Of a DNA stretch of 64,000 bases, positions 1,920 to 55,703 are shown piece after piece; position 1 is the stretch's first letter, and each line of letters starts with the position of its first letter. The stretch is from Aureispira anguillae (GTDB taxonomy: Bacteria; Bacteroidota; Bacteroidia; Chitinophagales; Saprospiraceae). The notes beneath the pieces were generated by a model. That model worked only from the letters and a program-made list of their open reading frames with translations. It made no database searches and was not told the origin of the DNA. Location of the stretch: contig NZ_AP026867.1 in assembly GCF_026000115.1 (NCBI RefSeq), positions 775,501 to 839,500 on the forward strand. The letters are read 5' to 3'. The translations under genes and the position numbers were made by a program.

Positions 1920-2109
1920 ATTACTCCGTTGGAAACCCGAACAGAGCTTGCGACCTCACGAACAGAGTGAGTAACAAGGCTCATGTGGTAAATTGTATTT
2001 AGTTGATTATCAAAATAATGTGCTTTCGTTGTTCAAGGTGTTAGTTGTTTGATAAGCAATCGAATACAAGATGATTTTTTGTTTTTTTACAAAAAATCAA
2101 CGGAGTATT
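1920..2109 (+). repeat. Palindrome-ended intergenic repeat, copy A
   Basis: Begins ATTACTCCGTTGGAAACCCG and ends TCAACGGAGTATT, so the ends are inverted repeats of each other. Inside are CTCACgaacagaGTGAG (a small hairpin), GTAACAAGGCTCATGTGGTA (shared with copy B) and CGAATACAAGATG (shared with copy D). It fills about 190 bases of the 497-base gap between bamD and the TPR gene. I see no coding potential in it. Confidence 0.65.
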
Positions 2110-2356
2110 ATAATCTTAAATTGTCTTTTTTTGTAGAAGGTTATTTATAAAATGAATGCGCTCTAGCATAGAGTTTAGGTTAAACAACTTCTATAAAAGG
2201 AAATTCTATCGTTAACGTTAAAAAAATCCTTTTCTGAAAAGAGGGGACGCTTTCTATAAAATAGACGACAAACTCTTAACAGATCAACTAAAGTATCTTA
2301 GCTAAAATAGAAAACGGAGAAATAAATAAATGGGTTGGGAAAAAGGCTAAGAGTAC

Positions 2357-2692
2357 TTAATCTTCAAAATCATCATCATCTCCCAATTCCATCTTTGCGC
2401 CAGCCAATTCCGACAAACTGTGGTTGTCTCCTGCTTCTTTTGCAATAGACATGCCTTTTTTGTACGTGAAAAACGCCTTTTTATCTTCCCCTAGGTGCTC
2501 ATACAGTTTGCCAAGGTGATAATAAGTGCCTACATATTCAGGGCTATTTTGTTCCAATTGAAGATAATAGTCTAATGCATTTTTGTTATCTTCTAGTCCT
2601 TCGTATTCTTTGGCAATGGCAAATAAAATAAAGGGTTCATTAGGGCTAGCCGCCAAAAAGCCTTTTAATTGTTCTAATCTTTTGGTTGTCAT
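2357..2692 (-). CDS. Small tetratricopeptide repeat protein
   Basis: A 111-residue soluble protein with no signal peptide. It has about three TPR units: PNEPFILFAIAKEYEGL/NKNALDYYLQLEQNSPE, YVGTYYHLGKLYEHLGEDKK, and AFFTYKKGMSIAKEAGD. The tail is very acidic (GDDDDFED). TPR proteins of this size act as protein-binding scaffolds and nothing points to a specific partner. It stands alone: 497 bases separate it from bamD, and the PKD gene on the other side is divergent. The start MTTKRLEQLKG is the only sensible ATG. Confidence 0.75.
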   Translation of the reverse strand: MTTKRLEQLKGFLAASPNEPFILFAIAKEYEGLEDNKNALDYYLQLEQNSPEYVGTYYHLGKLYEHLGEDKKAFFTYKKGMSIAKEAGDNHSLSELAGAKMELGDDDDFED

Positions 2693-2848
2693 ATTGGTTA
2701 TTGTTTAGAAGAGAGCAAAGATACTAACTCCCCAATAATCTACTACTTAAATGCCTATTTTTTGTTAAAAAAATGATGGGATAACCTAGAAAATTGGCAA
2801 GAGATAAAGTCTTTATGTTGTCTCAATATAAAATCTTACTATAATAAA

Positions 2849-2883
2849 TTTGTTCTATAAGGTTTTGGGGCAAATTATTTTTG
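2849..2883 (+). promoter_or_regulatory. Candidate promoter of the PKD/T9SS gene
   Basis: TTTG at 2849-2852 and TATTTTTG at 2876-2883 match the Bacteroidota -33 (TTTG) and -7 (TAnnTTTG) elements with a 23-base spacer, at the long end of the usual range. The ATG at 2929 would follow a leader of about 40 bases. Confidence 0.45.
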
Positions 2884-2928
2884 GTTTTTTGTGTATTTTG
2901 CAAATCATATCCACTAAAAAATAGAATT

Positions 2929-4434
2929 ATGAACCACCTTATCCACTTAACAATAACGTTAATATTGTGTTTTTGCTCAGGCATTATTGCCCAAATAGAA
3001 CCGCTAGATGAACCGCTAGAGGGGCTATTGTTAACAGCCGATTTTATGGCAGATTTGACCTATACTTGTGACGGAATTGTTCAATTTCAAGATTTATCAT
3101 CAAATACACCAACCAATTGGTTGTGGCAGTTTGGGGACGGTGGGCTTTCAAGCCAACAGCATCCAACATATACGTATGCGAACAGTGGTGTTTATACCGT
3201 CACTTTGTATACCTCCAATGCCCAAGGAGGAGACACCATTGTTAAAACAGCCTATATAACGGTTGAAAAACCCAAGGTAACTTCTATTTCCAATGCCGAG
3301 ATTTGCCCTAATACTTCTGCTTCCTTAACTGCTACAAATGGTTCAGGAACTTTGCGTTGGTACGATGGCGCAAATACTTTGTTAGGGACAGGATCTACTT
3401 TTATGACTCCTTCTTTAACAGCAACAACAACTTATTTTGTAGAAGATGCTATTGCCACTACTACTACGGAATATGCAGGTCCTCTTAATGGAACAACAGT
3501 AGGCAGTGGGGGGTATCATGGTGGAGGATTTACAGGTGGAGTTAACTTTACGGCTTATCAAGCATTTGAAATTGTATCAGTATGGGTAGATGCAGATGGG
3601 GCAGGAAGTCGTACGATTTATTTATACGATGGTCATATTGCGAGTGGGAATAATTTTAACAATACCATTCTCAGCCAAGTTACTGTCAATATTCCCGATG
3701 GACAGTCTCGAGTTCAAGTTAATTTACAGGTGCCTGGTTTGGGAGATTATTGTTTGGCAGGAGATCAAATGAATTTATTTAGAAATAACAATGGTTCAGC
3801 ATCCTATCCTTATACCTTGTCAGGGGTGTTGGATATGGTGAGTTCAACCACTTCTTCCAATGGATTTTATTACTATTTTTATAATTGGGAATTGGATTTG
3901 GAAGAGGCTTGTGTGAGTCCTAAAGAACCTGTTGTGGCTACAGTGGTAGAAGCTGCTTTTACGAATGTTATTAGTGGAGGAACAGCAAGTTTTACAGATG
4001 CATCTATAGGAGCTACTAGTTGGTTATGGGATTTTGGGGATGGAAACACTTCTACACAGCAGCATCCAACCCATACTTATACAACAAACAATGGTCCTCA
4101 TCTAGTTACCCTAACCATTAATAATGGCATTTGTTCTACTATGGATTCTGTAACGGTTTCTGTGGGGATTCAGCAACTCTCCAATAGCATGAGTCTTGCC
4201 ATTGTTCCTAATCCTGCTAAGGAGCAGACCCATTTAATTTTTAGCGAACCATTATCAGAGGATTTGACCATTGAATTAATGAATTTAGATGGAAGGATAA
4301 TTAAAAAAAATAGATTAATAGAGGGGGAATCTACCCTTGCTCTTCCACTTACGGATTTACCACCTGCATTGTATCTAATTCGTTTGTCAACGAGCTCAAT
4401 TACAGATGTTCGAAAACTGGTGATTCAGCGATAG
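2929..4434 (+). CDS. Secreted PKD-domain protein with T9SS type A sorting domain
   Basis: A 501-residue protein starting MNHLIHLTITLILCFCSG, a signal peptide. An in-frame TTG 16 codons upstream is less likely because it would bury the signal. Domains in order: a PKD domain (about 30-115; WLWQFGDGG...HPTYTY), an Ig-like T9SS-associated domain (CPNTSASLTA...LRWYDGANTLLG), a middle beta-rich segment (about 185-330) that I do not recognise, a second PKD domain (WLWDFGDGNTST...HPTHTY), and the C-terminal sorting domain (IVPNPAKEQTHLIF...LPPALYLIRL). The last domain predicts export by T9SS and attachment or release at the cell surface. The sorting domain closely resembles that of the protease encoded next, suggesting related cargo. 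Substrate unknown. Confidence 0.8.
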   Translation: MNHLIHLTITLILCFCSGIIAQIEPLDEPLEGLLLTADFMADLTYTCDGIVQFQDLSSNTPTNWLWQFGDGGLSSQQHPTYTYANSGVYTVTLYTSNAQGGDTIVKTAYITVEKPKVTSISNAEICPNTSASLTATNGSGTLRWYDGANTLLGTGSTFMTPSLTATTTYFVEDAIATTTTEYAGPLNGTTVGSGGYHGGGFTGGVNFTAYQAFEIVSVWVDADGAGSRTIYLYDGHIASGNNFNNTILSQVTVNIPDGQSRVQVNLQVPGLGDYCLAGDQMNLFRNNNGSASYPYTLSGVLDMVSSTTSSNGFYYYFYNWELDLEEACVSPKEPVVATVVEAAFTNVISGGTASFTDASIGATSWLWDFGDGNTSTQQHPTHTYTTNNGPHLVTLTINNGICSTMDSVTVSVGIQQLSNSMSLAIVPNPAKEQTHLIFSEPLSEDLTIELMNLDGRIIKKNRLIEGESTLALPLTDLPPALYLIRLSTSSITDVRKLVIQR

Positions 4435-4480
4435 ATAGTAAATATTTAGCGACTTATTATTTAGCCTTCAAAAGAAGCGT

Positions 4481-4542
4481 TATGGAATAGAAGGTTTGAA
4501 AACATAATCTTTGAGATTGGTTTTCAAATCTTTTATTCCATA
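4481..4542 (+). terminator. Long hairpin terminator after the PKD/T9SS gene
   Basis: TATGGAATAGAAGGTTTGAA with AAC pairs with GTTTTCAAATCTTTTATTCC with ATA over 23 positions, two of them G-U, around a loop of about 16 bases. It lies 46 bases past the stop. A mixed A-rich stretch follows rather than a T run, so it may act as an mRNA 3'-end stabiliser as much as an intrinsic terminator. Confidence 0.55.
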
Positions 4543-4611
4543 GAAAAAAAGTGAAAGTTAATGCTTTCATTGCCAATGTCTAAGAGATTTAAATGTTAAG
4601 ATTTTACACAA

Positions 4612-4640: not shown

Positions 4641-4709
4641 TATTATTGCTAGAATTTGAAATTTTATTTCAAATAATACTACTGTTACTAACATTAAATC
4701 TAAAAAATT

Positions 4710-8330: not shown

Positions 8331-8358
8331 AAGATGTAACAAGGCTGATGTGCCAAAG

Positions 8359-8397: not shown

Positions 8398-8461
8398 GTG
8401 TGTAGAGGGAAATTTTTGACAATAAAAACTAGCATCTTAATTTTTTATTCGTTATACTATT

Positions 8462-8623
8462 AATACTCCGCTGACTAGCTACGCTGCGACTTTGTGGTTA
8501 CTACGTGAGCCTTGTTATGCACTCAGTTTAGCTGCACTGTTAGATTAGCTAGTAGCTCCCTGAGGTCGGTTCGTTATCACTCGTGAGCCAGCATAGTTGG
8601 GGTCGGGTTTCTAGCGGAGTAAT
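8462..8623 (-). repeat. Palindrome-ended intergenic repeat, copy B
   Basis: Ends are AATACTCCGCTGA and TAGCGGAGTAAT. On the minus strand it starts ATTACTCCGCTAGAAACCCG, like copies A and D, then carries GGCTCACGAGTGATAACGAA and CCGACCTCAGGGAGCT (shared with D, partly E), ATAACAAGGCTCACGTAGTA (compare A), and ACCACAAAGTCGCAGCG (compare C). Both ends carry a C/G pair where other copies have T/A. Together with the terminator it accounts for much of the 477-base gap before the FG-GAP gene; I see nothing in the remainder. Confidence 0.65.
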
Positions 8624-8807
8624 GCCTATATATTGATGCTTCAACAACTTAAAAGGAGCAATAGATATACAGATTAAGATTTACAGAGATAAACCTAAAT
8701 TAGTTGCTTAGGCAATGGATGATGCGTGGCAAAAATAGCGGTAAAATAAAAATGACAGCCTTGCTTCCTTGTTTAGCAGCAACAATAATTAAAATCAGCT
8801 GATTATT

Positions 8808-11015: not shown

Positions 11016-11069
11016 TGTTTAGACAATATGATGGGAAGCAAAATGGTTTTTTGTTGCGTTATCTAATAT

Positions 11070-11137
11070 AATACTCCGTTGATTAATCTGCGCTGCGACT
11101 TCGTGGTACCTACAATACGATTTTTCAACGGAGTAAT
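11070..11137 (-). repeat. Palindrome-ended intergenic repeat, copy C (short form)
   Basis: A 68-base element with ends AATACTCCGTTGA and TCAACGGAGTAAT, inverted repeats over 12 of 13 bases. The interior carries CGCTGCGACTTCGTGGT, nearly identical to part of copy B. It is the shortest member and may approximate the minimal unit. The rest of the 420-base gap (11016-11435) shows nothing I can name. Confidence 0.65.
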
Positions 11138-11435
11138 GGCTAATAGGAACTTCTCTTTTTGTACTCTGATAAAAAGAAAATATGGTTAATAGCTGTTGTT
11201 CTGAAACTTTTTGAAATTGGAACAAAATCAGTTAGGCTATCTCTTTGCATAAGAGATAATACAAATAGAGTAGTTCTTTGTCAAAAAAAACATATATCTT
11301 AGATAGAATATGCAATTCTTTTATTTATCGAAGATAAAAAATTGCAAAAAGAGCTGGTTGCAACTTTTTATTATTTACTAACCTATAAGGAGCATTAAGT
11401 TTCTTGTGGACAACTATTAAATACCAAAATAAGTT

Positions 11436-17058: not shown

Positions 17059-17823
17059 ATGATTAATTTAAAAAAAATTACATTAACATTTTCAATGCTG
17101 TTATGCATTGTTCTATTGTATTCCTGTGGAAGTACTAAAGAGACCAATAGTGTTAGCTCTAAAGAGAGAAAAATTTTCGTAACAGGGGAGCTTGTTACCC
17201 AAGACGAGACTTATGCGAATATAAAAGGGGCTGTTGCCCGTTTGAGAGCTATATTATGTGGTAAGTTTGTTTGTTATAATACCTTAAAAGACCCTGCTGG
17301 CAAAAAATACTCAACTTGGCGGGTGAATGAGGGGCAGGATAGTGTTATTGCTTATCAAATTCCTATCGGAGACTACCACAAAGATGGTTATTGGATTTAT
17401 CATTATCAATGCCTGACTAGTTTACCAGATCAGCCTGTTTATGAGGGCATTTCTAGATTAATAGAATTGAATAGGGATACCATAAAAGCGGTCTACTATG
17501 AGCTTCCTAAGGATTTAGATCGACCGATTAATCAAGTCTTAAAAGATCCTAAAGCCGTTTTTGGACGAGTGAACTGGAAAGAATTAGAGCCCATTAAAGG
17601 GGAAAAAGTAGTGTATTATGTCCGCAAAACTCTTTTGACCTATAAAGGAGAATCTAAATGGAAGAGTAGCCAATTTACAAGTAAGGAAAAAGGGTTTGAT
17701 GCGGATTATTACAAAGTAGCACCTTCTAAAATAGTATACGGCAAAAATCAAGAATACTCAGAAAAGCAATCTCCTGAATGGTTGGTTAAAGCAGCTATGA
17801 TTCGATTGGATTTATTAAAATAA
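17059..17823 (+). CDS. Lipoprotein, tandem paralogue 1 of 4 (possible CpcT/CpeT-like fold)
   Basis: A 254-residue lipoprotein with lipobox Cys23 (LLYSC). The mature part holds the core shared by all four genes: IKGAVARLRAILCGKF with a conserved Cys, a W.....GQDS.. strand, QIPIGDYHKDGYWIYHYQ, LTSLPDQPVYEGISRL and NRDTIKAVYYELP. The G-W-Y-Q / LP..PVY / NRDTIKA..YE.P layout resembles CpcT/CpeT (chromophore-lyase-type beta-barrel) proteins found as lipoproteins in Bacteroidota, but I cannot confirm this. Its signal peptide differs from those of copies 2-4, so it is probably the oldest branch. A 13-pair AT hairpin follows the gene. Function unknown. Confidence 0.7.
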   Translation: MINLKKITLTFSMLLCIVLLYSCGSTKETNSVSSKERKIFVTGELVTQDETYANIKGAVARLRAILCGKFVCYNTLKDPAGKKYSTWRVNEGQDSVIAYQIPIGDYHKDGYWIYHYQCLTSLPDQPVYEGISRLIELNRDTIKAVYYELPKDLDRPINQVLKDPKAVFGRVNWKELEPIKGEKVVYYVRKTLLTYKGESKWKSSQFTSKEKGFDADYYKVAPSKIVYGKNQEYSEKQSPEWLVKAAMIRLDLLK

Positions 17824-17861
17824 CATATACTTATATATGGTCATATAACTAAACGTAAGCT

Positions 17862-17891
17862 CATTTAAAATATTCTAAAATATTTTAAATG
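17862..17891 (+). other. AT-only inverted repeat between lipoprotein genes 1 and 2
   Basis: CATTTAAAATATT pairs perfectly with AATATTTTAAATG (13 pairs) around CTAA. It lies 39 bases after the first lipoprotein stop and 20 before the next start. It may be a weak terminator or an mRNA-processing or stability element, and it could set different levels for copies 1 and 2-4. Confidence 0.5.
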
Positions 17892-17910
17892 AAATAAAAA
17901 AACGATTATA

Positions 17911-18687
17911 ATGCGATTAAAAAAACATGTATTCAAAGCCCCAATTTTTATACTCATTTTTTTAATCTTTTATTCCTGCACAATTACCAAAAATCAACGA
18001 ACAAAGGATCAAGACTCAGAAGGAATTTTGCTCTATGGAGAAGCCGTGCAAAAAAATGATTCCTACGCCAATATTAAAGGCACTGTGCCTCGTTTTAGGG
18101 CAATGATGTGTGGAAAATTTGCCCAATACCTTCCAGATACTACAGCCGAGGGCGGTTATTCCGTTTGGTTAGTTAACGATGGTAGAGATAGCGTTGTTTT
18201 TTATCAATTACCAGTCGGAAACCATCATAAGGTAGGGTATTGGGTTTATCAATCTCAAGTATTAACTAGCTTGCCTGATAATCCAGTTTCTCAGGGATTT
18301 ATTAAACTGGAGGGGCTAAATAGAGACACTATTAAAGCTATTATACACAAAGCTCCAGATGGTTTTATGCCAACTACTAAAGAAACATTAAACATCACTC
18401 AAGATGTTTTCAAGGAAATAGAGTGGGCAAAATTGGAAAAGGCAGAAGGGACTAACATTATTTATTATGTGCGAAAATCGCCTTTAGAATATTTAGGAAC
18501 ATCTGCTTTGTTTCATGCCCCCAGCATATTAGAGGGAAAAGGTTTTTTGTCTATTTATTATAGAGTAAGTCCTCAAAAAATAGCAATGGGTAGAAAAGGC
18601 TACAATGAGAATAAAGAATACCTAGGAAGTGCAAAAGAAGAGTACTTGCTTAAGCAAGCAATGATAGATCCCAATTGGTTGAATTAA
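17911..18687 (+). CDS. Lipoprotein, tandem paralogue 2 of 4 (possible CpcT/CpeT-like fold)
   Basis: A 258-residue lipoprotein with lipobox Cys23 (IFYSC). The core motifs are IKGTVPRFRAMMCGKF, QLPVGNHHKVGYWVYQSQ, LTSLPDNPVSQGFIKL and NRDTIKAIIHKAP. The first roughly 95 bases of the gene (signal peptide and a few residues beyond) are almost identical to copies 3 and 4, while the mature part is clearly diverged, notably after residue 150. It is the only copy with VSQGF in place of VYQ.F and with a Gly-rich C-terminal segment (GRKGYNENKEYLG). Role unknown: probably attached to the outer membrane or facing the periplasm. It is probably co-transcribed with the other copies unless the AT hairpin upstream ends transcripts. 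Confidence 0.7.
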   Translation: MRLKKHVFKAPIFILIFLIFYSCTITKNQRTKDQDSEGILLYGEAVQKNDSYANIKGTVPRFRAMMCGKFAQYLPDTTAEGGYSVWLVNDGRDSVVFYQLPVGNHHKVGYWVYQSQVLTSLPDNPVSQGFIKLEGLNRDTIKAIIHKAPDGFMPTTKETLNITQDVFKEIEWAKLEKAEGTNIIYYVRKSPLEYLGTSALFHAPSILEGKGFLSIYYRVSPQKIAMGRKGYNENKEYLGSAKEEYLLKQAMIDPNWLN

Positions 18688-18688
18688 A

Positions 18689-18707
18689 TACTCATAAAAT
18701 ATGAGTA
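18689..18707 (+). other. Small hairpin after lipoprotein gene 2
   Basis: TACTCATA pairs with TATGAGTA around AAA, starting two bases past the stop codon. No T run follows directly. It is a candidate 3'-end or processing hairpin. Confidence 0.4.
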
Positions 18708-18774
18708 ATCCTATACTATTAAAAAAAAAATGATGCTAAAGATCTTACACTATAAAAAATAAAATTTTATCATA

Positions 18775-19557
18775 ATGCGATTAAAAAAACATGTATTAAA
18801 AGCCCCAATTTGTATACTCAGTTTTTTAATCTTTTATTCCTGCACAATTACCAAAAATCAACGAACAAAACAGCAAAAATCGGAGAAAATTTTTGTTTAT
18901 GGAGCTAAGGCTATGGAAGAGGAAGCTTATACTGAAATCAAAGGTTCTGTTGCTCGTTTGCAAGCAATGATCTGTGGCAAATATATCTATACATATATTA
19001 GTGATGATGCTCAGAATGAAGACTTTTCAGTTTGGCGTACAGAAGATGGTCAAGATAGTATGATAGTTTGCCAAATTCCTATTGGCGATTATCGCAAAAT
19101 TGGTTACTGGGTTTATCATTGTCAATACTTAACCAGTTTGCCTAATGATCCTGTTTATCAAGCTTTTTCTAAGCTGGTTGCCCTTAATAGAGATACTATT
19201 AAAGCCGTTTATTATGAAGTGCCAGAAGGCTTTAAGTTAGATTTTACACAAAAAATGGTGGAGATTAAAGAAAACGCAGATAAAGTAGACTGGAACCAAC
19301 TGAAAATTTCCCCAGATAGTACTATTATCTATTATGCCCGTCAAAACCTTATTAAGTTTAAGGCAACGTCCAATATGGCAAAATTTTCAACGCCTCATCC
19401 TGAAATTAAATATCTGAAATACCATCAGGTTAATCTCCCAAATAAAATTTTAATTGATGCTGAATTATATGATAAGAATCAACAATACCTAAAGGAGTCT
19501 ACCCCTATTCAACTTATAAAAACAGCAGCGGTGCATCCTAATATGTATGAATATTAA
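18775..19557 (+). CDS. Lipoprotein, tandem paralogue 3 of 4 (possible CpcT/CpeT-like fold)
   Basis: A 260-residue lipoprotein with lipobox Cys23. The core motifs are IKGSVARLQAMICGKY, QIPIGDYRKIGYWVYHCQ, LTSLPNDPVYQAFSKL and NRDTIKAVYYEVPEGF. It is closest to copy 4: they share VYQ.FSKL, AV.YEVPEGFKLD and the DK.......L tail. The signal-peptide DNA is nearly the same as in copies 2 and 4. The spacing to copy 4 is only 52 bases, so these two are likely one transcript. No catalytic motif is recognised. Confidence 0.7.
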   Translation: MRLKKHVLKAPICILSFLIFYSCTITKNQRTKQQKSEKIFVYGAKAMEEEAYTEIKGSVARLQAMICGKYIYTYISDDAQNEDFSVWRTEDGQDSMIVCQIPIGDYRKIGYWVYHCQYLTSLPNDPVYQAFSKLVALNRDTIKAVYYEVPEGFKLDFTQKMVEIKENADKVDWNQLKISPDSTIIYYARQNLIKFKATSNMAKFSTPHPEIKYLKYHQVNLPNKILIDAELYDKNQQYLKESTPIQLIKTAAVHPNMYEY

Positions 19558-19609
19558 TGGAAGTAAAATAATGATAAAATGGATTAGATTATAATAAAAA
19601 CTTATTGCA

Positions 19610-20392
19610 ATGCGATTAAAAAAACATGTATTAAAAGCCCCAATTTTTATACTCAGTTTTTTAATCTTTTATTCCTGTACGGTTACAAAAAAACAACAAA
19701 CAAAACATCAAAAACCTAAGGGAATTTTTGTTTATGAGGCAGCAGAGTTAAGAGAGGAACAATATAGAAATATAAAAGGAGCTGTACCTCGCTTAAGAGC
19801 CATGATGTGTGGAAAATTTGTGCATCAAATATTGACTAAAAATGAAGAAGGTGTAATAAAATATGAAACTTGGCATACTAAGGATGGAGAGGACAGCATG
19901 ATGATTTATCAGGTTCCTGTGGGAGATCCTCACAAAATCGGTTATTGGATTTATAATTGCCAATACCTAACCAGTTTACCTGATAATCCTGTTTATCAAA
20001 CGTTTTCTAAACTGGAAGCAGTAAATAGAGATACTATTAAAGCTGTTTCTTATGAAGTGCCAGAAGGTTTTAAGCTAGATGTTACACAAAAAACAGCTGC
20101 CTTTAAGGCTTCTTTAGAAAAGATAGAGTGGAAGGGCTTAAAATTGTATAATGGAGGGTCAGTAAAGTATTATGAACGCCAAACTATTATAAAATATAAT
20201 GGTCAATCTATTATGAAAGCAAAAGAGTTGGAAAAACATAAAAAGATAAAGTATGTTATCAATTATTCTAATGTTGAAATGGATAGAATTCTATTTGGAT
20301 CGAGATATTATGATAAAGACAAAAAGTTTTTAGGGGGCAACAATCCCGATCAACTTTTTAAACTGGCGGGGATACATCCTAATTTGTATTAG
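19610..20392 (+). CDS. Lipoprotein, tandem paralogue 4 of 4 (possible CpcT/CpeT-like fold)
   Basis: A 260-residue lipoprotein with lipobox Cys23. The core motifs are IKGAVPRLRAMMCGKF, QVPVGDPHKIGYWIYNCQ, LTSLPDNPVYQTFSKL and NRDTIKAVSYEVPEGFKLD. The C-terminal third is Lys-rich (KELEKHKKIKYVINYSN) and differs from the other copies. It is the last gene of the array. A solo right end of the intergenic repeat family (20419-20432) follows. Function unknown. Confidence 0.7.
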   Translation: MRLKKHVLKAPIFILSFLIFYSCTVTKKQQTKHQKPKGIFVYEAAELREEQYRNIKGAVPRLRAMMCGKFVHQILTKNEEGVIKYETWHTKDGEDSMMIYQVPVGDPHKIGYWIYNCQYLTSLPDNPVYQTFSKLEAVNRDTIKAVSYEVPEGFKLDVTQKTAAFKASLEKIEWKGLKLYNGGSVKYYERQTIIKYNGQSIMKAKELEKHKKIKYVINYSNVEMDRILFGSRYYDKDKKFLGGNNPDQLFKLAGIHPNLY

Positions 20393-20418: not shown

Positions 20419-20432
20419 TTAACGGAGTATTA
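20419..20432 (+). repeat. Solo right end of the intergenic repeat family
   Basis: TTAACGGAGTATTA matches the right terminus of full copies (A: TCAACGGAGTATT). No matching left end lies nearby, so this is a fragment or a chance match. It sits 27 bases past the last lipoprotein stop. Confidence 0.35.
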
Positions 20433-20620
20433 TCTATGCTAAAGAGCAGAATTTTCAAAAAAAGCTGCAATAAATCCAACAATGCATTAATTCTAACCAA
20501 AGGATTTCACAACTAAACAACAAAATACCTACTAGATTAGCTATAATTAGCGTAATTTGCAATCATTTCTTAACAAAAATCTTGTTTAACACGTTTTAAT
20601 AGAATAATTGGTAGCATATT

Positions 20621-38673: not shown

Positions 38674-38820
38674 AAGGGGTTTCTTATAAAAAAAATACAA
38701 GTGCTCAAAATCAGTGTTTTAATGATTCACTTTTGGCGTTAATTTGAAAATTTACCGATTTTATAATACTTGATAATCAAAAAACAATTTTGTGTAAACA
38801 TTTTTATAAGAAAACCCTTT
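38674..38820. repeat. Inverted repeat pair downstream of thyA
   Basis: AGGGGTTTCTTATAAAAA at the left and TTTTTATAAGAAAACCCTTT at the right are inverted copies differing by about one base and one gap, roughly 110 bases apart. The interior is AT-rich and non-coding. It could be a small non-autonomous element or a long-range hairpin. It abuts repeat copy D. Confidence 0.4.
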
Positions 38821-38823
38821 AAC

Positions 38824-38988
38824 ATTACTCTGTTGGAAACCCGAATACAAGATGTTTTTTTTGCTTTGTTATAACTGTTCTCATGAGCATAGCGAACTAA
38901 AAAAAGCAAAAAACTATCTCACGAGTGTAACGAACCGACCTCAGGGAGCTCATAAGCGCTAGCGCACTAGCTAATTAACGGAGCATTA
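38824..38988 (+). repeat. Palindrome-ended intergenic repeat, copy D
   Basis: Starts ATTACTCTGTTGGAAACCCG and ends TTAACGGAGCATTA. It contains CGAATACAAGATG (as in A) and CTCACGAGTGTAACGAACCG then ACCTCAGGGAGCT (as in B). CTCATGAGCATAGCGAAC looks like a diverged second copy of the CTCACGAGTG module. It lies in the 655-base gap between thyA and the DUF5916 gene. The remaining 280 bases to the next start show nothing I can name. Confidence 0.65.
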
Positions 38989-39267
38989 CTTTAAATAAAA
39001 TAGAGCTACAAAATTGCACGATACTAAACTATTGATCGATCAGTTTTGTTTCTCTTTTGAATAAAGAAAAAGTGCTTGTCTTTTTCCTAATGATTTGTTG
39101 GTTACTAGAACGCTCTATTTGTCCTATAGATTTGTTGGTGTCCTAATTAAATGGTGTAGGATTAAGAAGCCTTGTTGCTATACAAGTATTTTGGACGAGT
39201 GCTGCCAATGATTGAATATTCCCACTAGCATAAAAAATATATGATGAATCCTGTAAGAAGATAACCA

Positions 39268-44536: not shown

Positions 44537-44634
44537 TTATTTGTATTGATGTTTTGGATTTTTGAAGTTATTCATTGGACTAAACAAATCCTTCTGTATA
44601 TAACAAACAAAATTTTTGCCAGTATTATTATACT

Positions 44635-44976
44635 AATACTTCGTTGATTTTTATGTTTTCTTATGAAATGGGCTATTCTAGTTGAATAGCATTTGAAACA
44701 TTTAATTCATGAGAAGTAGAATCTTGTAACAAAGACTTTCTCTAATTTAAAAAAAATAAAAAGATTGTGATTAGTTTTTATCTTTTTGTTAGATAGTTAT
44801 TTATAACTCGAAGTTGTTTAAAAATAGAGTTGCTTCGTTATGCGTTTCACTTATGGGGCAGGAAGCTGGGTTTGTGAGTGCTTCGCAGTTTTGTTGAATC
44901 AAGCCCATGGCAAGCTCATATAGATATAGTGAGTACCACCCCAAGAATAGCTCATGAGTGCAAGGAGCTAACCAAG
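44635..44976 (+). repeat. Degenerate pieces of the intergenic repeat family
   Basis: AATACTTCGTTGA at 44635-44647 matches the family left end at 12 of 13 bases. GCTCATGAGTGCAAGGAGCT followed by AACCAAG at 44950-44976 resembles the copy E module GGCTCACGAGTGATAACAAG followed by CTAACCAAG. No clear right end is present. These lie in the 463-base gap between paralogues 2 and 3. The remainder of the gap shows nothing. Confidence 0.35.
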
Positions 44977-44999
44977 CAGCAAAAGCTGATTTTTAGTGC

Positions 45000-47286: not shown

Positions 47287-48132
47287 TTACAAACGATTAA
47301 TTTCGTCCTCAGAAAGCCCTGTATACTGAGCTATTTTAGAAACAGAAAAGCCATCTGCTTTCATTTCTTTAGCTACATCTTGCCTGCCCTTCTTTATCCC
47401 CTCTTCTATGCCTTCTGCCTTAGAAGTATCCACAACGTTTTTAAGGTCTCGATAGTATTTTAAACTTTCCTCATAGAGTTGTTTTTCTTTAGGGGAAAAC
47501 TTAGCGATTTCAGCAGCTTCAAAGAGTTTTTGAAAGATTCTTTCTTGTAGTGCAATAGGACGGTTTTGGAGATTGGCAAGATGTCTAAAAATATAAAGCC
47601 ACTTATCGAATTTAGATTCTAGTTGAGCAACCTCTTTGGTGAACTTAGGGAGTTCGATATAGATATATGTCAGTTTATCGTAAAAGAGCCTATTTTTATG
47701 ATCTTTTAATTTTACGGTATGCAAAATATCATCTCTATCTTTGTGCTCGTCAAAAACAAAATCTAAAATGCCAATGGTATAAACAGCGGCCAATTGAAAA
47801 TCCCAATCGCCCTTTTTAGCCTGCTCTTGTATGGGAAAGGTAGAGTAAAAAACAGATCGATCCTTAAAGAAATTTTGCTTAGCTTTTTGGACTTCGACAA
47901 TAAACTTTTCGCCCGAAGCACTTTCGCAGTACAAATCAAAAATCGCCTTTCGCTCCAATGGCGTATTGCCTAGGTGCTCATTTTTGGTATAAGAAAGGTT
48001 TTTGATTTGATGAAAAGAAGGAAGGAGTTGATTTAAGAAATCAATCAATAATTCTTTATTGGGCTCAATGCCAAAAAGTTTTTTGAATCCAAAATCAGTC
48101 AAAGGATTTATATATTTGTCTTTTAAATTCAT
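47287..48132 (-). CDS. Rpn-family PD-(D/E)XK nuclease / putative transposase, copy 1
   Basis: A 281-residue protein of the recombination-promoting nuclease (Rpn, PDDEXK) family. N-terminal INPLTDFGFKKLFGIEPNKE is the family signature. The nuclease core has Asp66 (IFDLYCES) and Glu80-x-Gln82-Lys83 (FIVEVQK). A helical middle region (FDKWLYIFRHLANL) is followed by a hinge, here the shortest (GIEEGIKKGRQ), and a C-terminal helix-turn-helix-like tail (GFSVSKIAQYTGLSEDEINRL). Rpn proteins are DNA endonucleases linked to recombination and phage defence. This copy is the outermost and ends in INRL. One substitution (QLAAVYTIG rather than QLTAVYTIG) separates it from the other copies. Confidence 0.85.
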   Translation of the reverse strand: MNLKDKYINPLTDFGFKKLFGIEPNKELLIDFLNQLLPSFHQIKNLSYTKNEHLGNTPLERKAIFDLYCESASGEKFIVEVQKAKQNFFKDRSVFYSTFPIQEQAKKGDWDFQLAAVYTIGILDFVFDEHKDRDDILHTVKLKDHKNRLFYDKLTYIYIELPKFTKEVAQLESKFDKWLYIFRHLANLQNRPIALQERIFQKLFEAAEIAKFSPKEKQLYEESLKYYRDLKNVVDTSKAEGIEEGIKKGRQDVAKEMKADGFSVSKIAQYTGLSEDEINRL

Positions 48133-48156
48133 AACTTAAAATTGATGGGTAATATA

Positions 48157-48164
48157 CAAATATA
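48157..48164 (-). promoter_or_regulatory. TATATTTG box upstream of Rpn copy 1
   Basis: TATATTTG on the minus strand, 24 bases before the ATG, fits the TAnnTTTG -7 consensus. There is no clear -33 element. Confidence 0.35.
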
Positions 48165-48218
48165 AGCTTTTTTACCTGATAGAGTTGCTATTGCTTTTTG
48201 TTTTTTTAATGCAAACAA

Positions 48219-48705
48219 CTATGGTCGTAGTTGCCAGTTGGGCAAACTTTTTAGTACAGCTGTATTGGTCATCTGTTTTGAGGTGCCACCAAAAATAGTA
48301 TAGATACCAGGCTGGTCAGTTTTTAGGTGCAATTCTGTTGATTGGGGAATGTTCTGTGAACTATTAAAAAGAGCACTATATCCTAAATTTTCTGTGCTAA
48401 TTTCTTGCTCTTTAGCATATTTATGATAAATAATCTTGTTATCATAAGCCCAGAATATTTTTCCTGCTCCTCGGACACTAAAACTAGTTTCTGCTTGCAA
48501 AAAATGACCCGTTGGGGTAAAGGTATTATCGATGTGAATTTGGCTACTAGAGCAGGGGGCTATGAGTTTTAACGTTCGTTTGGTTCCAACTATAATTGCT
48601 TTTTTGATGGGATGAAATCGAACGGTATTGGCATCAAAGGTATTGGGAGCCTCTGTATAAAATACAGGTTCTTGTGTTGTTATATCCCACAAGTTGATAT
48701 GATTA
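48219..48705 (-). pseudogene. 5'-truncated copy of the propeller gene (unit 1)
   Basis: This matches the last 487 bases or so of the propeller gene at 51177-52700 almost exactly, with the same stop. It begins abruptly at the amplification junction, so it lacks the first two thirds, the signal peptide and the start. A 157-residue frame starting MWDITTQEPVFYTE remains open, but it has no leader and is best seen as a scar of the tandem duplication. Confidence 0.8.
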
Positions 48706-48728
48706 GAATATTTTTATGTTCTGTTATT

Positions 48729-49586
48729 TTACAAACAATTAATTTCGTCCTCAGAAAGCCCTGTATATTGAGCTATTTTAGAAACAGAAAAACCATCTGC
48801 TTTCATTTCTTTAGCTACATCTTGCCTTCCCTTTTTTATCCCCTTCTTTATACCCTCTTCTATGCCTTCTGCCTTAGAAGTATCCACAACGTTTTTAAGG
48901 TCTCGATAGTATTTTAAACTTTCCTCATAGAGTTGTTTTTCTTTAGGGGAAAACTTAGCAATTTCAGCAGCTTCAAAGAGTTTCTGAAAGATTCTTTCTT
49001 GTAGTGCAATAGGACGGTTTTGGAGATTGGCAAGATGTCTAAAAATATAAAGCCACTTATCGAATTTAGATTCTAGTTGAGCAACCTCTTTGGTGAACTT
49101 AGGGAGTTCGATATAGATATATGTCAGTTTATCGTAAAAGAGCCTATTTTTATGATCTTTTAATTTTACGGTATGCAAAATATCATCTCTATCTTTGTGC
49201 TCGTCAAAAACAAAATCTAAAATGCCAATGGTATAAACAGCGGTCAATTGAAAATCCCAATCGCCCTTTTTAGCCTGCTCTTGTATGGGAAAGGTAGAGT
49301 AAAAAACAGATCGATCCTTAAAGAAATTTTGCTTAGCTTTTTGGACTTCGACAATAAACTTTTCGCCCGAAGCACTTTCGCAGTACAAATCAAAAATCGC
49401 CTTTCGCTCCAATGGCGTATTGCCTAGGTGCTCATTTTTGGTATAAGAAAGGTTTTTGATTTGATGAAAAGAAGGAAGGAGTTGATTTAAGAAATCAATC
49501 AATAATTCTTTATTGGGCTCAATGCCAAAAAGTTTTTTGAATCCAAAATCAGTCAAAGGATTTATATATTTGTCTTTTAAATTCAT
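48729..49586 (-). CDS. Rpn-family PD-(D/E)XK nuclease / putative transposase, copy 2
   Basis: A 285-residue middle copy with the same nuclease core (Asp66, Glu80, Gln82/Lys83) as copy 1. The hinge is one four-residue unit longer (GIEEGIKKGIKKGRQ). The last residues are INCL instead of INRL, from a single C-to-T type change. It carries its own upstream TATATTTG box, so all three copies could be expressed. As the encoded proteins are almost identical over the first 240 residues, the copies probably act additively unless hinge length changes assembly. Confidence 0.85.
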   Translation of the reverse strand: MNLKDKYINPLTDFGFKKLFGIEPNKELLIDFLNQLLPSFHQIKNLSYTKNEHLGNTPLERKAIFDLYCESASGEKFIVEVQKAKQNFFKDRSVFYSTFPIQEQAKKGDWDFQLTAVYTIGILDFVFDEHKDRDDILHTVKLKDHKNRLFYDKLTYIYIELPKFTKEVAQLESKFDKWLYIFRHLANLQNRPIALQERIFQKLFEAAEIAKFSPKEKQLYEESLKYYRDLKNVVDTSKAEGIEEGIKKGIKKGRQDVAKEMKADGFSVSKIAQYTGLSEDEINCL

Positions 49587-49610
49587 AACTTAAAATTGAT
49601 GGGTGATATA

Positions 49611-49618
49611 CAAATATA
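49611..49618 (-). promoter_or_regulatory. TATATTTG box upstream of Rpn copy 2
   Basis: TATATTTG on the minus strand, 24 bases before the ATG, carried inside the repeat unit. There is no clear -33 element. Confidence 0.35.
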
Positions 49619-49673
49619 AGCTTTTTTACCTGATAGAGTTGCTATTGTTTTTTGTTTTTTAAAATGCAAACAA

Positions 49674-50161
49674 CTATGGTCGTAGTTGCCAGTTGGGCAA
49701 ACTTTTTAGTACAGCTGTATTGGTCATCTGTTTTGAGGTGCCACCAAAAATAGTATAGATACCAGGCTGGTCGGTTTTTAGGTGCAATTCTGTTTGATTG
49801 GGGAATGTTCTGTGAACTATTAAAAAGAGCACTATATCCTAAGTTTTCTGTGCTAATTTCTTGCTCTTTAGCATATTTATGATAAATAATCTTGTTATCA
49901 TAAGCCCAGAATATTTTTCCTGCTCCTCGGACACTAAAACTAGTTTCTGCTTGCAAAAAATGACCCATTGGGGTAAAGGTATTATCGATGTGAATTTGGC
50001 TACTAGAGCAGGGGGCTATGAGTTTTAACGTTCGTTTGGTTCCAACTATAATTGCTTTTTTGATGGGATGAAATCGAACGGTATTGGCATCAAAGGTATT
50101 GGGAGCCTCTGTATAAAATACAGGTTCTTGTGTTGTTATATCCCACAAGTTGATATGATTA
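49674..50161 (-). pseudogene. 5'-truncated, frameshifted copy of the propeller gene (unit 2)
   Basis: Same 3' fragment as in unit 1, but one extra T (CTGTTTGATTGG instead of CTGTTGATTGG, near 49792) shifts the frame. The end therefore reads SNRIAPKNRPAWYLYYFWW and runs past the old stop to 49642. Decay of this fragment while the Rpn genes stay intact supports the view that only the nuclease gene is under selection. Confidence 0.8.
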
Positions 50162-50184
50162 GAATATTTTTATGTTCTGTCATT

Positions 50185-51090
50185 TTACAAACGATTAATT
50201 TCGTCCTCAGAAAGCCCTGTATACTGAGCTATTTTAGAAACAGAAAAACCATCTGCTTTCATTTCTTTAGCTACATCTTGCCTTCCCTTTTCTATTCCTT
50301 TCTTCATCCCCTTTTCTATACCTTTTTTCATCCCCTTTTCTATCCCCTTCTTTATCCCCTCTTCTATGCCTTCTGCCTTAGAAGTATCCACAACGTTTTT
50401 AAGGTCTCGATAGTATTTTAAACTTTCCTCATAGAGTTGTTTTTCTTTAGGGGAAAACTTAGCGATTTCAGCAGCTTCAAAGAGTTTTTGAAAGATTCTT
50501 TCTTGTAGTGCAATAGGACGGTTTTGGAGATTGGCAAGATGTCTAAAAATATAAAGCCACTTATCGAATTTAGATTCTAGTTGAGCAACCTCTTTGGTGA
50601 ACTTAGGGAGTTCGATATAGATATATGTCAGTTTATCGTAAAAGAGCCTATTTTTATGATCTTTTAATTTTACGGTATGCAAAATATCATCTCTATCTTT
50701 GTGCTCGTCAAAAACAAAATCTAAAATGCCAATGGTATAAACAGCGGTCAATTGAAAATCCCAATCGCCCTTTTTAGCCTGCTCTTGTATGGGAAAGGTA
50801 GAGTAAAAAACAGATCGATCCTTAAAGAAATTTTGCTTAGCTTTTTGGACTTCGACAATAAACTTTTCGCCCGAAGCACTTTCGCAGTACAAATCAAAAA
50901 TCGCCTTTCGCTCCAATGGCGTATTGCCTAGGTGCTCATTTTTGGTATAAGAAAGGTTTTTGATTTGATGAAAAGAAGGAAGGAGTTGATTTAAGAAATC
51001 AATCAATAATTCTTTATTGGGCTCAATGCCAAAAAGTTTTTTGAATCCAAAATCAGTCAAAGGATTTATATATTTGTCTTTTAAATTCAT
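50185..51090 (-). CDS. Rpn-family PD-(D/E)XK nuclease / putative transposase, copy 3 (long hinge)
   Basis: A 301-residue copy next to the intact propeller gene. The core is as in copies 1 and 2, but the hinge is expanded by 20 residues relative to copy 1 (GIKKGIEKGMKKGIEKGMKK, then GIEKGRQ), an eight-residue KKGIEKGM period coded by 24-base repeats. The extra units bring two in-frame ATG codons just before the C-terminal domain. In E. coli Rpn genes, internal initiation is reported to give a small C-terminal protein that restrains the nuclease. Whether that happens here is unknown, but only this copy has Met codons inside the hinge. Confidence 0.85.
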   Translation of the reverse strand: MNLKDKYINPLTDFGFKKLFGIEPNKELLIDFLNQLLPSFHQIKNLSYTKNEHLGNTPLERKAIFDLYCESASGEKFIVEVQKAKQNFFKDRSVFYSTFPIQEQAKKGDWDFQLTAVYTIGILDFVFDEHKDRDDILHTVKLKDHKNRLFYDKLTYIYIELPKFTKEVAQLESKFDKWLYIFRHLANLQNRPIALQERIFQKLFEAAEIAKFSPKEKQLYEESLKYYRDLKNVVDTSKAEGIEEGIKKGIEKGMKKGIEKGMKKGIEKGRQDVAKEMKADGFSVSKIAQYTGLSEDEINRL

Positions 51091-51114
51091 AACTTAAAAT
51101 TGATGGGTGATATA

Positions 51115-51122
51115 CAAATATA
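51115..51122 (-). promoter_or_regulatory. TATATTTG box upstream of Rpn copy 3
   Basis: TATATTTG on the minus strand, 24 bases before the ATG, between the propeller stop and the Rpn start. It gives Rpn a possible start of transcription independent of the propeller gene. Confidence 0.35.
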
Positions 51123-51176
51123 AGCTTTTTTACCTGATAGAGTTGCTATTGCTTTTTGTTTTTTTAATGCAAACAA

Positions 51177-52700
51177 CTATGGTCGTAGTTGCCAGTTGGG
51201 CAAACTTTTTAGTACAGCTGTATTGGTCATCTGTTTTGAGGTGCCACCAAAAATAGTATAGATACCAGGCTGGTCGGTTTTTAGGTGCAATTCTGTTGAT
51301 TGAGGAATGTTCTGTGAACTATTAAAAAGAGCACTATATCCTAAGTTTTCTGTGCTAATTTCTTGCTCTTTAGCATATTTATGATAAATAATCTTGTTAT
51401 CATAAGCCCAGAATATTTTTCCTGCTCCTCGGACACTAAAACTAGTTTCTGCTTGCAAAAAATGACCCGTTGGGGTAAAGGTATTATCGATGTGAATTTG
51501 GCTACTAGAGCAGGGGGCTATGAGTTTTAGCGTTCGTTTGGTTCCAACTATAATTGCTTTTTTGATGGGATGAAATCGAACGGTATTGGCATCAAAGGTA
51601 TTGGGAGCCTCTGTATAAAATACAGGTTCTTGTGTTGTTATATCCCACAAGTTGATATGATTAGAATTGAACATAGCCATTGACCAATCGGGGCTAAAGG
51701 AGAAATAGGCTCCAGAACAACCTTGGTTTTGAGTAACATAGTTAATAAAATTTAGGTCTGCATTAATTTTAAAAATATGCCCATTTTTACCCAAGCTAGT
51801 AAGGAGATCGCCATTTTCTTGGACAACCAATTCATGCAAAGGAAACTTAGCTTTTTTAGACCCTTTTTCATTTAACTTTAGTGTTAAGATGCGATTGATG
51901 TCTGCGCCAAAATCCACCATTTTGATTAGGCTTAAATCTTTTACATTATACTGGGCAATTTGTGCTTTACAGTTGCTAAGGTAAATGGACTTTCCATCAA
52001 TGCTAAATGTAAAATGCTGCTTGCTGTCACATTTGCTCCATTCAAAATCTTTAGGAATTTCTCTTCTAGAAGCATAAACATCTCCTGTAATAGGGTTCAT
52101 GATAATTAATTGTGCTTCATGAGTAGATTTGCATTGTTGTTCATCAAAACCATGATTATTAAACCACACTGCTAATTTTGAACCATCAGGAGAATAAGCA
52201 AGGTTAGCAGGGTACAAAGTAGTGTTGTCTACAACATCTATAAAATAAGTAGCATCGTAACAAACTGGAACTCGTTTTATTTTGAGTAATATTCGACCAT
52301 TTTGAGCATTTCGTACTTCTAGCTTTTTAGTGCCTGTTTTGACATAATTGTAACAAATGGAAATCGTTTTTCCATCAGGGCTAGCTGCCATATGTGAGAT
52401 ATGCTCATAACCCAACTTTACAGCCCAATTTTCTGAAAAATCATTTCCTGATAAGCTATATAAGTATCCATTGTTATCGGCTACATAGACATTGCCTTGC
52501 TGGTCGGTATCTAGGTAAACAATCCGACTCGAATTTTTGGAATCAGACAATTCAAAATTAGCAATGCAGGCCCAGTGAAACTCATCTAAACCAATCGGAG
52601 ATGGTTTATTGGAGGTAATTGGTTTCAGGCTGTCTGTTATTTGTGCAAAACTTGTGTACACCATGCCGAAGCATATTAATGTAAAGACAATTTTTGGCAT
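51177..52700 (-). CDS. Secreted WD40-like beta-propeller protein
   Basis: A 507-residue protein with a signal peptide (IVFTLICFGMVYTSFAQ). Propeller blades can be read as repeated phrases: IVYLDTDQQGNVYVADNNGY, HISHMAASPDGKTISICYNY, NLAYSPDGSKLAVWFNN, HFTFSIDGKSIYLSNCKA, YFSFSPDWSMAMFNSNHINL and TVRFHPIKKAIIVGTKR. It is probably a periplasmic or surface binding scaffold; no enzyme motif is seen and no T9SS tail is present. Its last 487 bases were co-amplified with the Rpn gene. A TATTTTTG box lies at 52765-52772 on the minus strand, without a clear -33 partner. Confidence 0.75.
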   Translation of the reverse strand: MPKIVFTLICFGMVYTSFAQITDSLKPITSNKPSPIGLDEFHWACIANFELSDSKNSSRIVYLDTDQQGNVYVADNNGYLYSLSGNDFSENWAVKLGYEHISHMAASPDGKTISICYNYVKTGTKKLEVRNAQNGRILLKIKRVPVCYDATYFIDVVDNTTLYPANLAYSPDGSKLAVWFNNHGFDEQQCKSTHEAQLIIMNPITGDVYASRREIPKDFEWSKCDSKQHFTFSIDGKSIYLSNCKAQIAQYNVKDLSLIKMVDFGADINRILTLKLNEKGSKKAKFPLHELVVQENGDLLTSLGKNGHIFKINADLNFINYVTQNQGCSGAYFSFSPDWSMAMFNSNHINLWDITTQEPVFYTEAPNTFDANTVRFHPIKKAIIVGTKRTLKLIAPCSSSQIHIDNTFTPTGHFLQAETSFSVRGAGKIFWAYDNKIIYHKYAKEQEISTENLGYSALFNSSQNIPQSTELHLKTDQPGIYTIFGGTSKQMTNTAVLKSLPNWQLRP

Positions 52701-54807: not shown

Positions 54808-54825
54808 CAAAGGTTTATGATTTCT

Positions 54826-54847
54826 AAAGGCTGTTTATAGCTTTTTT
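54826..54847 (+). terminator. Short rho-independent terminator after the UbiD-family gene
   Basis: AAAGGCT pairs with AGCTTTT (one G-U) around GTTTAT and continues TT. It lies 19 bases past the stop. Confidence 0.5.
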
Positions 54848-54886
54848 GAATACCAATGCATCACGTTATATTAGGGATAAAATTTT

Positions 54887-55552
54887 ATGAAAAAGGCTTT
54901 TTTTATTTTAATATGTTTCTCAGGTTTATTATATTGTTGCAATACTAATTCTAGCTCAAAGGTAGAAGAGAAGCTGGTTGAAGAAGAACTAGAATTGGCA
55001 GAAGGAGAAATAGAAGTAGCGGATACCTTGCGGTTGATGGAAGGAAAAATTCCTGAAAATTGGATACAAATTCCTTTGTTAGAAAATGGCTATTATATAG
55101 GTTTTCCTAAAAAGCCTACAAAAAAAGAGCGAAAAAGTAGCCAACGAATTGATTATAAACTAAAACGATCTAAATATAGATTGAGTTGTAACCTTACCGA
55201 CTTGTCTGAGGAGCCTTCTTTTCAACAAAATAAAAAATATAGAACGGCTTACTATAAGGCAATAGTTGATGATTTAGGAGAAGGCATAGAGGGTGTTGTA
55301 GAAGAACATGAAGTCTTCTACAGTCAGGCTATCTATGAAGGAATTAGAGCAACTATTGTAGCAGATGATGTGCGTATTTATATACAATGCATTATTATAG
55401 AATCCGTATTATACACCATTAGCTTGACGTTGTTTGACGATGAAAAACCCGCTTATTTGCAATTGAGAGATAAGTTTTTTTACTCTTTTGGTAATGCGTT
55501 TTATAGCAACAAAAGTGAACGAAAATATGAAATTAATAAAGATTCATTTTAA
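54887..55552 (+). CDS. Lipoprotein, function unknown
   Basis: A 221-residue lipoprotein with lipobox LLYCC (Cys17 or Cys18). A short acidic, Glu-rich stretch (VEEKLVEEELELAEGEIEVA) follows. The folded part (about 55-205) contains YYIGFPKKPTKKERKSSQ, YRLSCNLTDLS and IIIESVLYTISLTLFDDE. The GFP.KP pattern near the start of the domain recalls periplasmic proteins whose domain begins FPxKP, a form I have seen in Bacteroidota proteins without known function. It is probably a single gene: repeat copy E separates it from nnr. Confidence 0.65.
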   Translation: MKKAFFILICFSGLLYCCNTNSSSKVEEKLVEEELELAEGEIEVADTLRLMEGKIPENWIQIPLLENGYYIGFPKKPTKKERKSSQRIDYKLKRSKYRLSCNLTDLSEEPSFQQNKKYRTAYYKAIVDDLGEGIEGVVEEHEVFYSQAIYEGIRATIVADDVRIYIQCIIIESVLYTISLTLFDDEKPAYLQLRDKFFYSFGNAFYSNKSERKYEINKDSF

Positions 55553-55610
55553 GATAACAAAAAATACAGCGCAACGATATTTTGCTAGTATTTAAGTATT
55601 CCCATTCTAC

Positions 55611-55703
55611 ATTACTCCGTTTTAAATCTCGAAGAACCCTGCTTGCTGGCTCACGAGTGATAACAAGCTAACCAAGTACCGTAGTTAAATTAACGGAGGA
55701 TTA
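55611..55703 (+). repeat. Palindrome-ended intergenic repeat, copy E
   Basis: Starts ATTACTCCGTTTTAAATCTC and ends TTAACGGAGGATTA. It contains GGCTCACGAGTGATAACAAG followed by CTAACCAAG (compare B and the degenerate piece at 44950). Its right end lies only 12 bases before the nnr ATG, so it must form part of the nnr 5' leader or promoter region. Confidence 0.6.

Follow-up and report, generated by a model that had tools for sequence, protein, structure and literature searches.

The window analysed here is a 64,000-nucleotide stretch of the genome of Aureispira anguillae, a marine bacterium (NZ_AP026867.1; G000:C1:775501-839500; 7.79 Mb in three contigs), and the subject of this work is fam1, a dispersed family of palindrome-ended repeats found in it. 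These repeats are miniature elements that duplicate 6 bp of their target. Shorter hairpin cassettes lie inside them, and strains differ in which individual cassettes they carry. The likely explanation of the whole has two layers, in which miniature inverted-repeat transposable elements (MITEs) of an IS4/IS701-like insertion sequence (IS) clade carry the hairpin cassettes. The first layer is a new family of MITEs within an IS clade. The repeats are small defective transposons carrying smaller cassettes that come and go, a rare and directly observable case of layered mobile DNA. The initial annotation of the window had recognised the terminal ends and the dispersal of the family; it overlooked both the target duplication of 6 bp and the cassettes nested inside.

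In the first layer, non-autonomous MITEs insert largely between genes, duplicating 6 bp of target, and a DDE_Tnp_1 transposase of the IS4/IS701-like clade would act in trans. This enzyme is suggested by similar ends, the size of the duplication and co-occurrence. In the second layer, cassettes are found where stem and loop join, in the second hairpin's loop and at two facing points on the main stem, with borders that are mostly 2-3 bp direct repeats (AA, TT, TA or TAA). Repeated and nested insertion, together with internal loss, would produce element lengths of about 45 to 380 bp.

Miniature elements and their target sites

The true ends of fam1 are CATTACTCCGTTG on the left and TAACGGAGTATTA on the right, which form an oriented pair instead of one shared sequence. 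The termini form 13-bp imperfect inverted repeats. Both ends are present at 25 of 30 fetched loci, representing 24 distinct elements (L025 and L026 are one element). When oriented, all 24 read CATTACTCCGTTG ... (T/C)AACGGAGTATTA, with occasional base changes. A sister family, fam2, has the ends CAATAGTTCGTTG...CAACGAACTACTA and the same plan. The ATT at either terminus is element sequence, not target. Reading ATT/AAT as a 3-bp duplication was ruled out by the orientation of the ends (C-ATT...ATT-A in the 24 elements) and by empty sites, which show 6 bp outside them; membership in IS5/ISL2, suggested by ANT, fell with it.

Near-exact ends are in excess. With two mismatches or fewer, ATTACTCCGTTG occurs 15 times in the window versus 4.3 times (standard deviation 2.1, maximum 10) in 100 dinucleotide shuffles, and its exact form occurs 47 times in the whole genome versus once for the reversed control. 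The initial annotation had made its proposal depend on such an excess over shuffled sequence and on further copies genome-wide, and both were found. The shorter, laxer ANTACTCCGTT with one mismatch gave no excess (771 versus 786), so the signal is carried by near-exact ends only.

A perfect 6-bp direct repeat lies directly outside the ends of three of the five full window copies (TAATCT, CTTTAA and ATTCTA). The wider test of end pairs covered the window and, from two strains, Aureispira sp. CCB-QB1 (G008) and G003, 788 kb each. All six flanking bases match at 89 of 175 pairs less than 400 bp apart versus none of the 253 pairs spaced 400-8000 bp, counts in which the pairs are not independent, as fam2 was partly counted from both strands and orthologs occur in both strains.

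Movement is seen when the 788 kb of G008, about a tenth of the genome, are compared with G003. The strains are 96-99.5% identical over aligned blocks; with divergent stretches set aside, 0.4-0.6% of sites differ. Requiring clean flanks reduced 163 raw indels of at least 10 bp to 35 of at least 9 bp. Called elements make up just 7,588 of 788,170 bp, yet 25 of these 35 indels are repeat sequence by a k-mer rule (one, of 12 bp and A/T-rich, is probably chance). Elements of 152 bp are polymorphic at A2:340 (TTATAT), A2:152980 (ATATGT) and A2:308812 (TAGTAA), and a fourth, at A3:75475, is filled in G003 with a 7-bp repeat (ATTATAA). Two shorter elements also show 7 bp, namely one of 51 bp at A2:131144 (TCCTATT) and one of 44 bp at A2:256680 (AACAATA). 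At A2:122039, a 154-bp fam1 insertion has an aligned repeat of 3 bp, and AAAAAT by eye. Most whole-element empty/filled sites duplicate 6-7 bp, and the empty sites keep one target copy. The initial annotation had proposed comparing empty with filled sites between strains; such strain-specific sites with target duplications, together with an IS whose ends nearly match (see below), bear out its view of a MITE-like mobile unit.

The elements lie between genes, in both orientations and without coding capacity, as first described. Under simple open reading frame (ORF) calls, 54 of 58 are intergenic; among random 150-bp segments the share is 10-15%. Occupied gaps include those between divergent, convergent and co-directional genes.

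From a density of about one per 10 kb, the initial annotation had extrapolated to hundreds of copies per genome, which proved too high. Twenty roughly evenly spaced 20-kb stretches of the A. anguillae genome (400 kb) held six fam1 calls, or about one per 67 kb outside the window, and four of the six have at least five of six flank bases matching. Scaled from this sample, the genome holds roughly 100 intact copies, and the window is denser in fam1 than the genome average. A first look at CCB-QB1 gave 111 fam1 and 196 fam2 candidates, of which 40 of each were scored. The family is present in five of the nine Aureispira genomes searched, A. anguillae included. The left end CATTACTCCGTTG was counted 43 times in A. 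anguillae, 117, 69, 58 and 78 times in G001, G003, G006 and G008, and 0 times in the remaining four congeners searched. Outside the genus, it was found once, in one of 31 genomes (the reversed control gave 0 or 1 per genome). A scan for CATTACTCCGTTGAAAA in one genome per species, across 84,980 species, returned at least 119 stretches. Among the 80 matches listed, 75 belong to Aureispira (CCB-QB1, B3_Bin_96_1 and HLG_WM_MAG_10) and five are single matches elsewhere. Searches of the openly licensed literature found no description of Aureispira repeats and nothing to contradict the initial statement that the family is not a recognised one.

A strain-polymorphic insertion of 161 bp at A1:5432 (L188:5432, G008:C39) lies outside the 25 repeat indels and has termini TAAGTAAGTGGGCAGAAAAAAA / TAAGTAATCGTTCAGAAAAAA by eye. 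It contains the hairpin TTTAGCGGGCTAAAG, of a type where cassettes also insert, and is probably a third mobile family.

Hairpin cassettes and the variable loop

The commonest full element is 146 bp long and consists of a terminal stem around a 17-bp hairpin (loop of ~38 nt) and an A/T hairpin of 12 bp. For the two strands of 58 elements, mean fold z values are -4.95 and -4.84 versus -1.0 for 60 of 419 control intergenic segments; in some elements the fold is weak. The two strands fold about equally well, which is what palindromic DNA should do. Across 27 fam1 copies, 98.3% of the cells at 43 predicted pairs are paired and 13 pairs have changed on both sides; these figures are tilted in favour of the structure, since the alignment also served to predict it.

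The interiors of the elements are mosaics of hairpin cassettes, 18-34 bp long, that sit at a small number of hotspots on the parent hairpins. When joined and split contexts were compared over 14-89 bases, the lengths peaked at 22 (112), 53 (98) and 21 (77), and the 20-23 class represents the cassettes. The 53-base class was rejected as a cassette, as it is the gain or loss of the main-hairpin loop plus one arm, an internal deletion class. Recurrent inserts are CCACGAAGTAGCAGCGCAGC between TA repeats, CCCGAAGGCTCACGAAGT and CCCGAAGGCTCAGCGTAGCT between AA, ATTGCATGAGTGCTTCGCAG between TT, and CTAAGCTTGCGATCTCACGAGCGTAGCGAGC between TAA. On the base element, the insert hotspots are positions 15, 28, 83, 112-119 and 130, and other hotspot rows reflect a shifted register or parts of the element's own sequence. 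The target at position 28 recurs at position 83 on the other arm of the main hairpin, and the two receive the same cassettes in opposite orientation.

Twelve cassettes are polymorphic between the two strains, eight of 20-22 bp and four of 34 bp, and 10 of the 12 have 2-3 bp direct repeats. Two of them (A1:159829 and A3:54805) sit in another hairpin repeat. Four cassettes, two of which overlap in sequence, occur in 52, 21, 14 and 11 copies per 788 kb versus 0 for reversed controls. A 75-base composite probe gave 43 matches in the A. anguillae genome, both with and without the terminal piece; in 41 the matched part is 93-100% identical to the probe (of 129 candidates, 40 were scored). It is 99% identical to the window copy at 38823..38988 and 99-100% identical at 13 other places. 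Two further ideas were set aside. Interchangeable half-cassettes joined at CTCA seemed plausible by eye and were not supported by counts, and a test for solo cassettes by a nearby end was useless, as 114 of 150 random intergenic spots passed too.

Entry of the cassettes most likely takes place at parent palindromes that are extruded or, during replication, single-stranded. It could occur by microhomology-guided template switching or by some nuclease or integrase, and the cassettes would then spread with the parent element or via conversion between copies. Within a tenth of the genome, the two strains, about half a percent apart at filtered sites, differ at a dozen cassette sites and at several whole-element sites. 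Both the target and the short repeats can be read in strains this close, and therefore movement of a 20-bp sequence is directly testable. If the second layer is true, a plain MITE can grow by accretion into a branched palindrome.

The loop is far more variable than the sequence around it. In 12 distinct fam2 copies, differences per site amount to 0.224 in the 38-nt loop and 0.014 in the other 108 bases; in 29 fam1 copies the figures are 0.346 and 0.056. A second loop set of 23 G008 and 13 G003 copies was partly picked for likeness to two young loops. In this set, paralog pairs with identical 108 bases number 11 in G008 and four in G003. None of these 15 pairs shares its loop (1-11 differences), though they are not all independent, many loci being common to both strains. 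At eight orthologous sites, 4 of 304 loop bases differ, as do 2 of the 864 bases outside the loop. The loop is nearly stable at these sites and therefore does not mutate fast in place. Hypermutation of the loop by transitions only was rejected, as its transition/transversion ratio of 2.3-4.7 is in line with the strain background of 3.4-4.5. Either many lineages are kept alive by constant jumping, with all but the loop constrained, or copying alters the loop. Four young insertions had no relative with an identical loop among the matches scored (40 of 102-196 candidates per genome). Their nearest copies differ at 1, 2, 1 and 2 loop bases and, in the other bases, by two substitutions plus a cassette, 1, 1 and about 3 differences. 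Lost donors or fast turnover under constraint are possible explanations of these loops.

Candidate enzyme and competing explanations

The candidate for the transposase is encoded by a 1365-bp IS. A search for CANTANNNNGTTGA-type ends, with one mismatch each, exact 6-bp repeats and a length of 600-6000 bp, covered 3.4 Mb of fetched sequence (a total that includes overlaps and orthologs). It yielded one element, G008:C39:225631-226995, which was detected on both strands. This IS has perfect 22-bp terminal repeats with the ends CAATACTTCGTTGA and a TTATGC duplication, and the corresponding site in G003 is empty. Its 429-amino-acid frame matches DDE_Tnp_1 (PF01609) at 30.5 bits (cut-off 23, E=3.9e-7). 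The transposase falls under the NCBIfam cut-offs for IS701_3 (92 of 170 bits) and IS4_1 (47 of 115 bits), and its nearest named relative seen is ISDra7 (31% shared). Target duplications are 4 bp in IS701 and about 8-13 bp in IS4. The duplications seen here differ from both, with 6 bp (TTATGC) in the IS and 7 bp exact in two relatives. Those relatives, at 36-39% identity, end in CAATACTCCGTAGAG (Persicobacter) and CAATACTTCGGTAAA (Bacteroides). IS-like fragments are found in the A. anguillae genome (41% identity) and in G006 (40%). The A. anguillae fragment has the end CAATACTTCGTTGAAAAAT, like fam1 at 17 of 19 bases, and a second end one mismatch off. This genome holds two DDE_Tnp_1 matches.

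Because of the similar ends and the duplications in the IS and its relatives, the first layer is placed as a MITE group of the IS4/IS701-like clade, and fam1 and fam2 may have been moved by the transposase of the 1365-bp IS. Like the MITEs of such IS, the elements have terminal inverted repeats (TIRs), here nearly matching those of a transposase element, a duplication of fixed length, and a non-coding, intergenic, high-copy and strain-polymorphic nature. They differ in their interior, where cassettes and hairpins form a mosaic and no trace of a deleted transposase gene was noticed. An autonomous copy with exact family ends was sought among the end pairs at 400-8000 bp, none of which has a 6/6 repeat. 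Five unpaired ends in the A. anguillae genome have no convincing partner within ~1.5 kb (at L011, a 2-mismatch end stands only 18 bases on).

Several observations weigh against the two-layer explanation. The ends of the IS match fam2 at 12 of 13 positions and fam1 at 11 of 13. Among nine Aureispira genomes, the intact IS is found in G008 only, as one copy, and G001, G002, G003, G004, G005 and G007 have no match to it, so that the enzyme behind most of the movement was not seen; a fam2 copy moved in G003, too. The decayed relative in A. anguillae lacks a clear duplication, two of the four IS relatives examined have no end pair, and no larger element with exact family ends occurs in the 3.4 Mb. 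The 6-bp rule has exceptions among polymorphic elements, and as aligned a 206-bp element (A3:30686) shows 1 bp and a 101-bp element (A3:25502) shows 2 bp. Gain and precise loss are indistinguishable in a two-strain comparison without an outgroup. Of the 12 polymorphic cassettes, one has a 1-bp repeat and one has none, and a fifth cassette counted in the 788 kb has four copies versus two for its control.

Much of the cassette evidence bears on a different proposal, that the mosaic arose by recombination or gene conversion among old copies plus palindrome deletions, the cassettes being exchanged pieces. The two-layer explanation is challenged by hotspots common to many copies, by the internal deletions of the 53-base class, and by two cassettes 20 bp apart that occur together in G003 (B3 ~63,874 and ~63,913). 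Conversion between copies is a serious competitor and may account for part of the polymorphism. As the whole explanation it is rather unlikely. A donor with the cassette at that very place would be required. Different cassettes occur at one hotspot and one cassette at several, the cassettes at A1:159829 and A3:54805 lie in a different hairpin repeat, and most of the polymorphic cassettes carry the 2-3 bp repeats. It is possible, if doubtful, that the hairpin cassettes are autonomous mobile units with a dedicated mechanism that recognises extruded hairpins, leaves the 2-3 bp repeats and is independent of the MITE transposase, and that the loop is renewed at copying.

Movement of repetitive extragenic palindromic (REP) or REPIN-type repeats as single-stranded DNA by a Y1 (REP-associated tyrosine, RAYT) transposase would also yield short, intergenic, strain-polymorphic palindromes, and the 18-34 bp hairpin cassettes, which would be the REP units, are REP-like. 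This is very unlikely. No PF01797 match was found in the A. anguillae genome at E<=0.001, in a search that was positive in 5 of 14 control genomes, and the 6-bp duplication and the DDE IS with similar ends point elsewhere. The initial label of REP-like does not hold in its strict sense. As described in passages of two sources, REPINs and GTAG/CGTC REPs are short, palindromic, intergenic, non-autonomous and of variable copy number (PMC3116915, PMC3733652). The Aureispira family differs from them in its TIRs with a 6-bp duplication and in a genome without a Y1 match. A family of structured regulatory RNAs or bidirectional terminators under selection on expression is more improbable still. The strong folds (mean z about -4.9 for 58 elements versus -1.0 for 60 controls), the covariation and a window copy 12 bp before a start codon speak for it, whereas the elements occupy gaps of all gene orientations, the strands fold about equally, some copies fold weakly and site occupancy differs between strains. 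The window has no Rfam match at gathering thresholds, and the structured RNA offered in the initial annotation is not needed.

For the two-layer explanation, the closest parallels to the cassettes are known from other systems by description. In Nostoc, Elhai et al. in 2008 reportedly found small dispersed repeats (SDRs) to be hairpin units of 21-27 nt, nested in each other and in minitransposons. The Aureispira cassettes are alike in being units of 18-34 bp at several hotspots and in another repeat. They are unlike the SDRs in belonging to another phylum, in having MITE-hairpin hotspots and in their mostly 2-3 bp repeats, and 12 of them are polymorphic between close strains; the two are likened by description, not by sequence. 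Small nested hairpins with very short target repeats also make up the GC clusters of yeast mitochondria, which are alike in nesting and short repeats and unlike in being organellar. A passage of one source has SDR5 of Nostoc inserted precisely inside HIP1 (PMC4390886), and one of another gives SDRs as some 20 bp long and possibly mobile (PMC2884548). If the cassettes of Aureispira are mobile, Bacteroidota would provide, after Nostoc, a second independent case in which mobile DNA approaches its lower size limit.

Window copies and adjoining sequences

The five full elements of the initial annotation are at the places first given, with bounds refined as in Table 1, and its two fragments exist, each as a single end. 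The flanks of the 70-bp element were scored 1/6 by a script that permits no shift. No second end was seen at 44634..44990.

Table 1. Copies and remnants of fam1 in the window.
Feature	Position	Strand	Length	Flanking repeat	Ends and interior
Full element	1919..2110	+	192 bp	TAATCT at 1913-1918 and 2111-2116	terminal stem; cassettes ~1935-1990; main hairpin ~1993-2069; A/T hairpin ~2072-2099
Full element	8461..8624	-	164 bp	partial at best	minus-strand ends CATTACTCCGCTA and CAGCGGAGTATTA; cassettes, main hairpin missing (by eye)
Short element	11069..11138	-	70 bp	CTAATA at 11063-11068 and 11140-11145, one extra base at 11139	interior cassette-like
Full element (L278)	38823..38988	+	166 bp	CTTTAA at 38817-38822 and 38989-38994	composite cassette CTATCTCACGAG...CACTAGCTAA
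Full element	55610..55703	+	94 bp	ATTCTA at 55604-55609 and 55704-55709	
Remnant	20419..20433	+			right end alone, TTAACGGAGTATTA
Degenerate remnant	44634..44990	-			one end TAATACTTCGTTGATTTTT; cassette-like sequence ~44860-44985 (by eye)

The 94-bp element ends 12 bp 5' of a start codon (ORF at 55716) and is probably in the leader of that gene. Its fold is weak (z -0.5 and -1.4).

Two groups of ORFs in the window are also repeated. At 47287-52700, three near-identical copies of an ORF of 281-301 amino acids (MNLKDKYINPLTDFGFKKLFG...), which presumably resembles the PD-(D/E)XK/Rpn family, are interleaved with truncated 3' ends from the adjoining repeat-protein gene, and the arrangement is a tandem amplification. 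At 17059-20392, four paralogous lipoprotein-like ORFs of 254-260 amino acids stand in a row.

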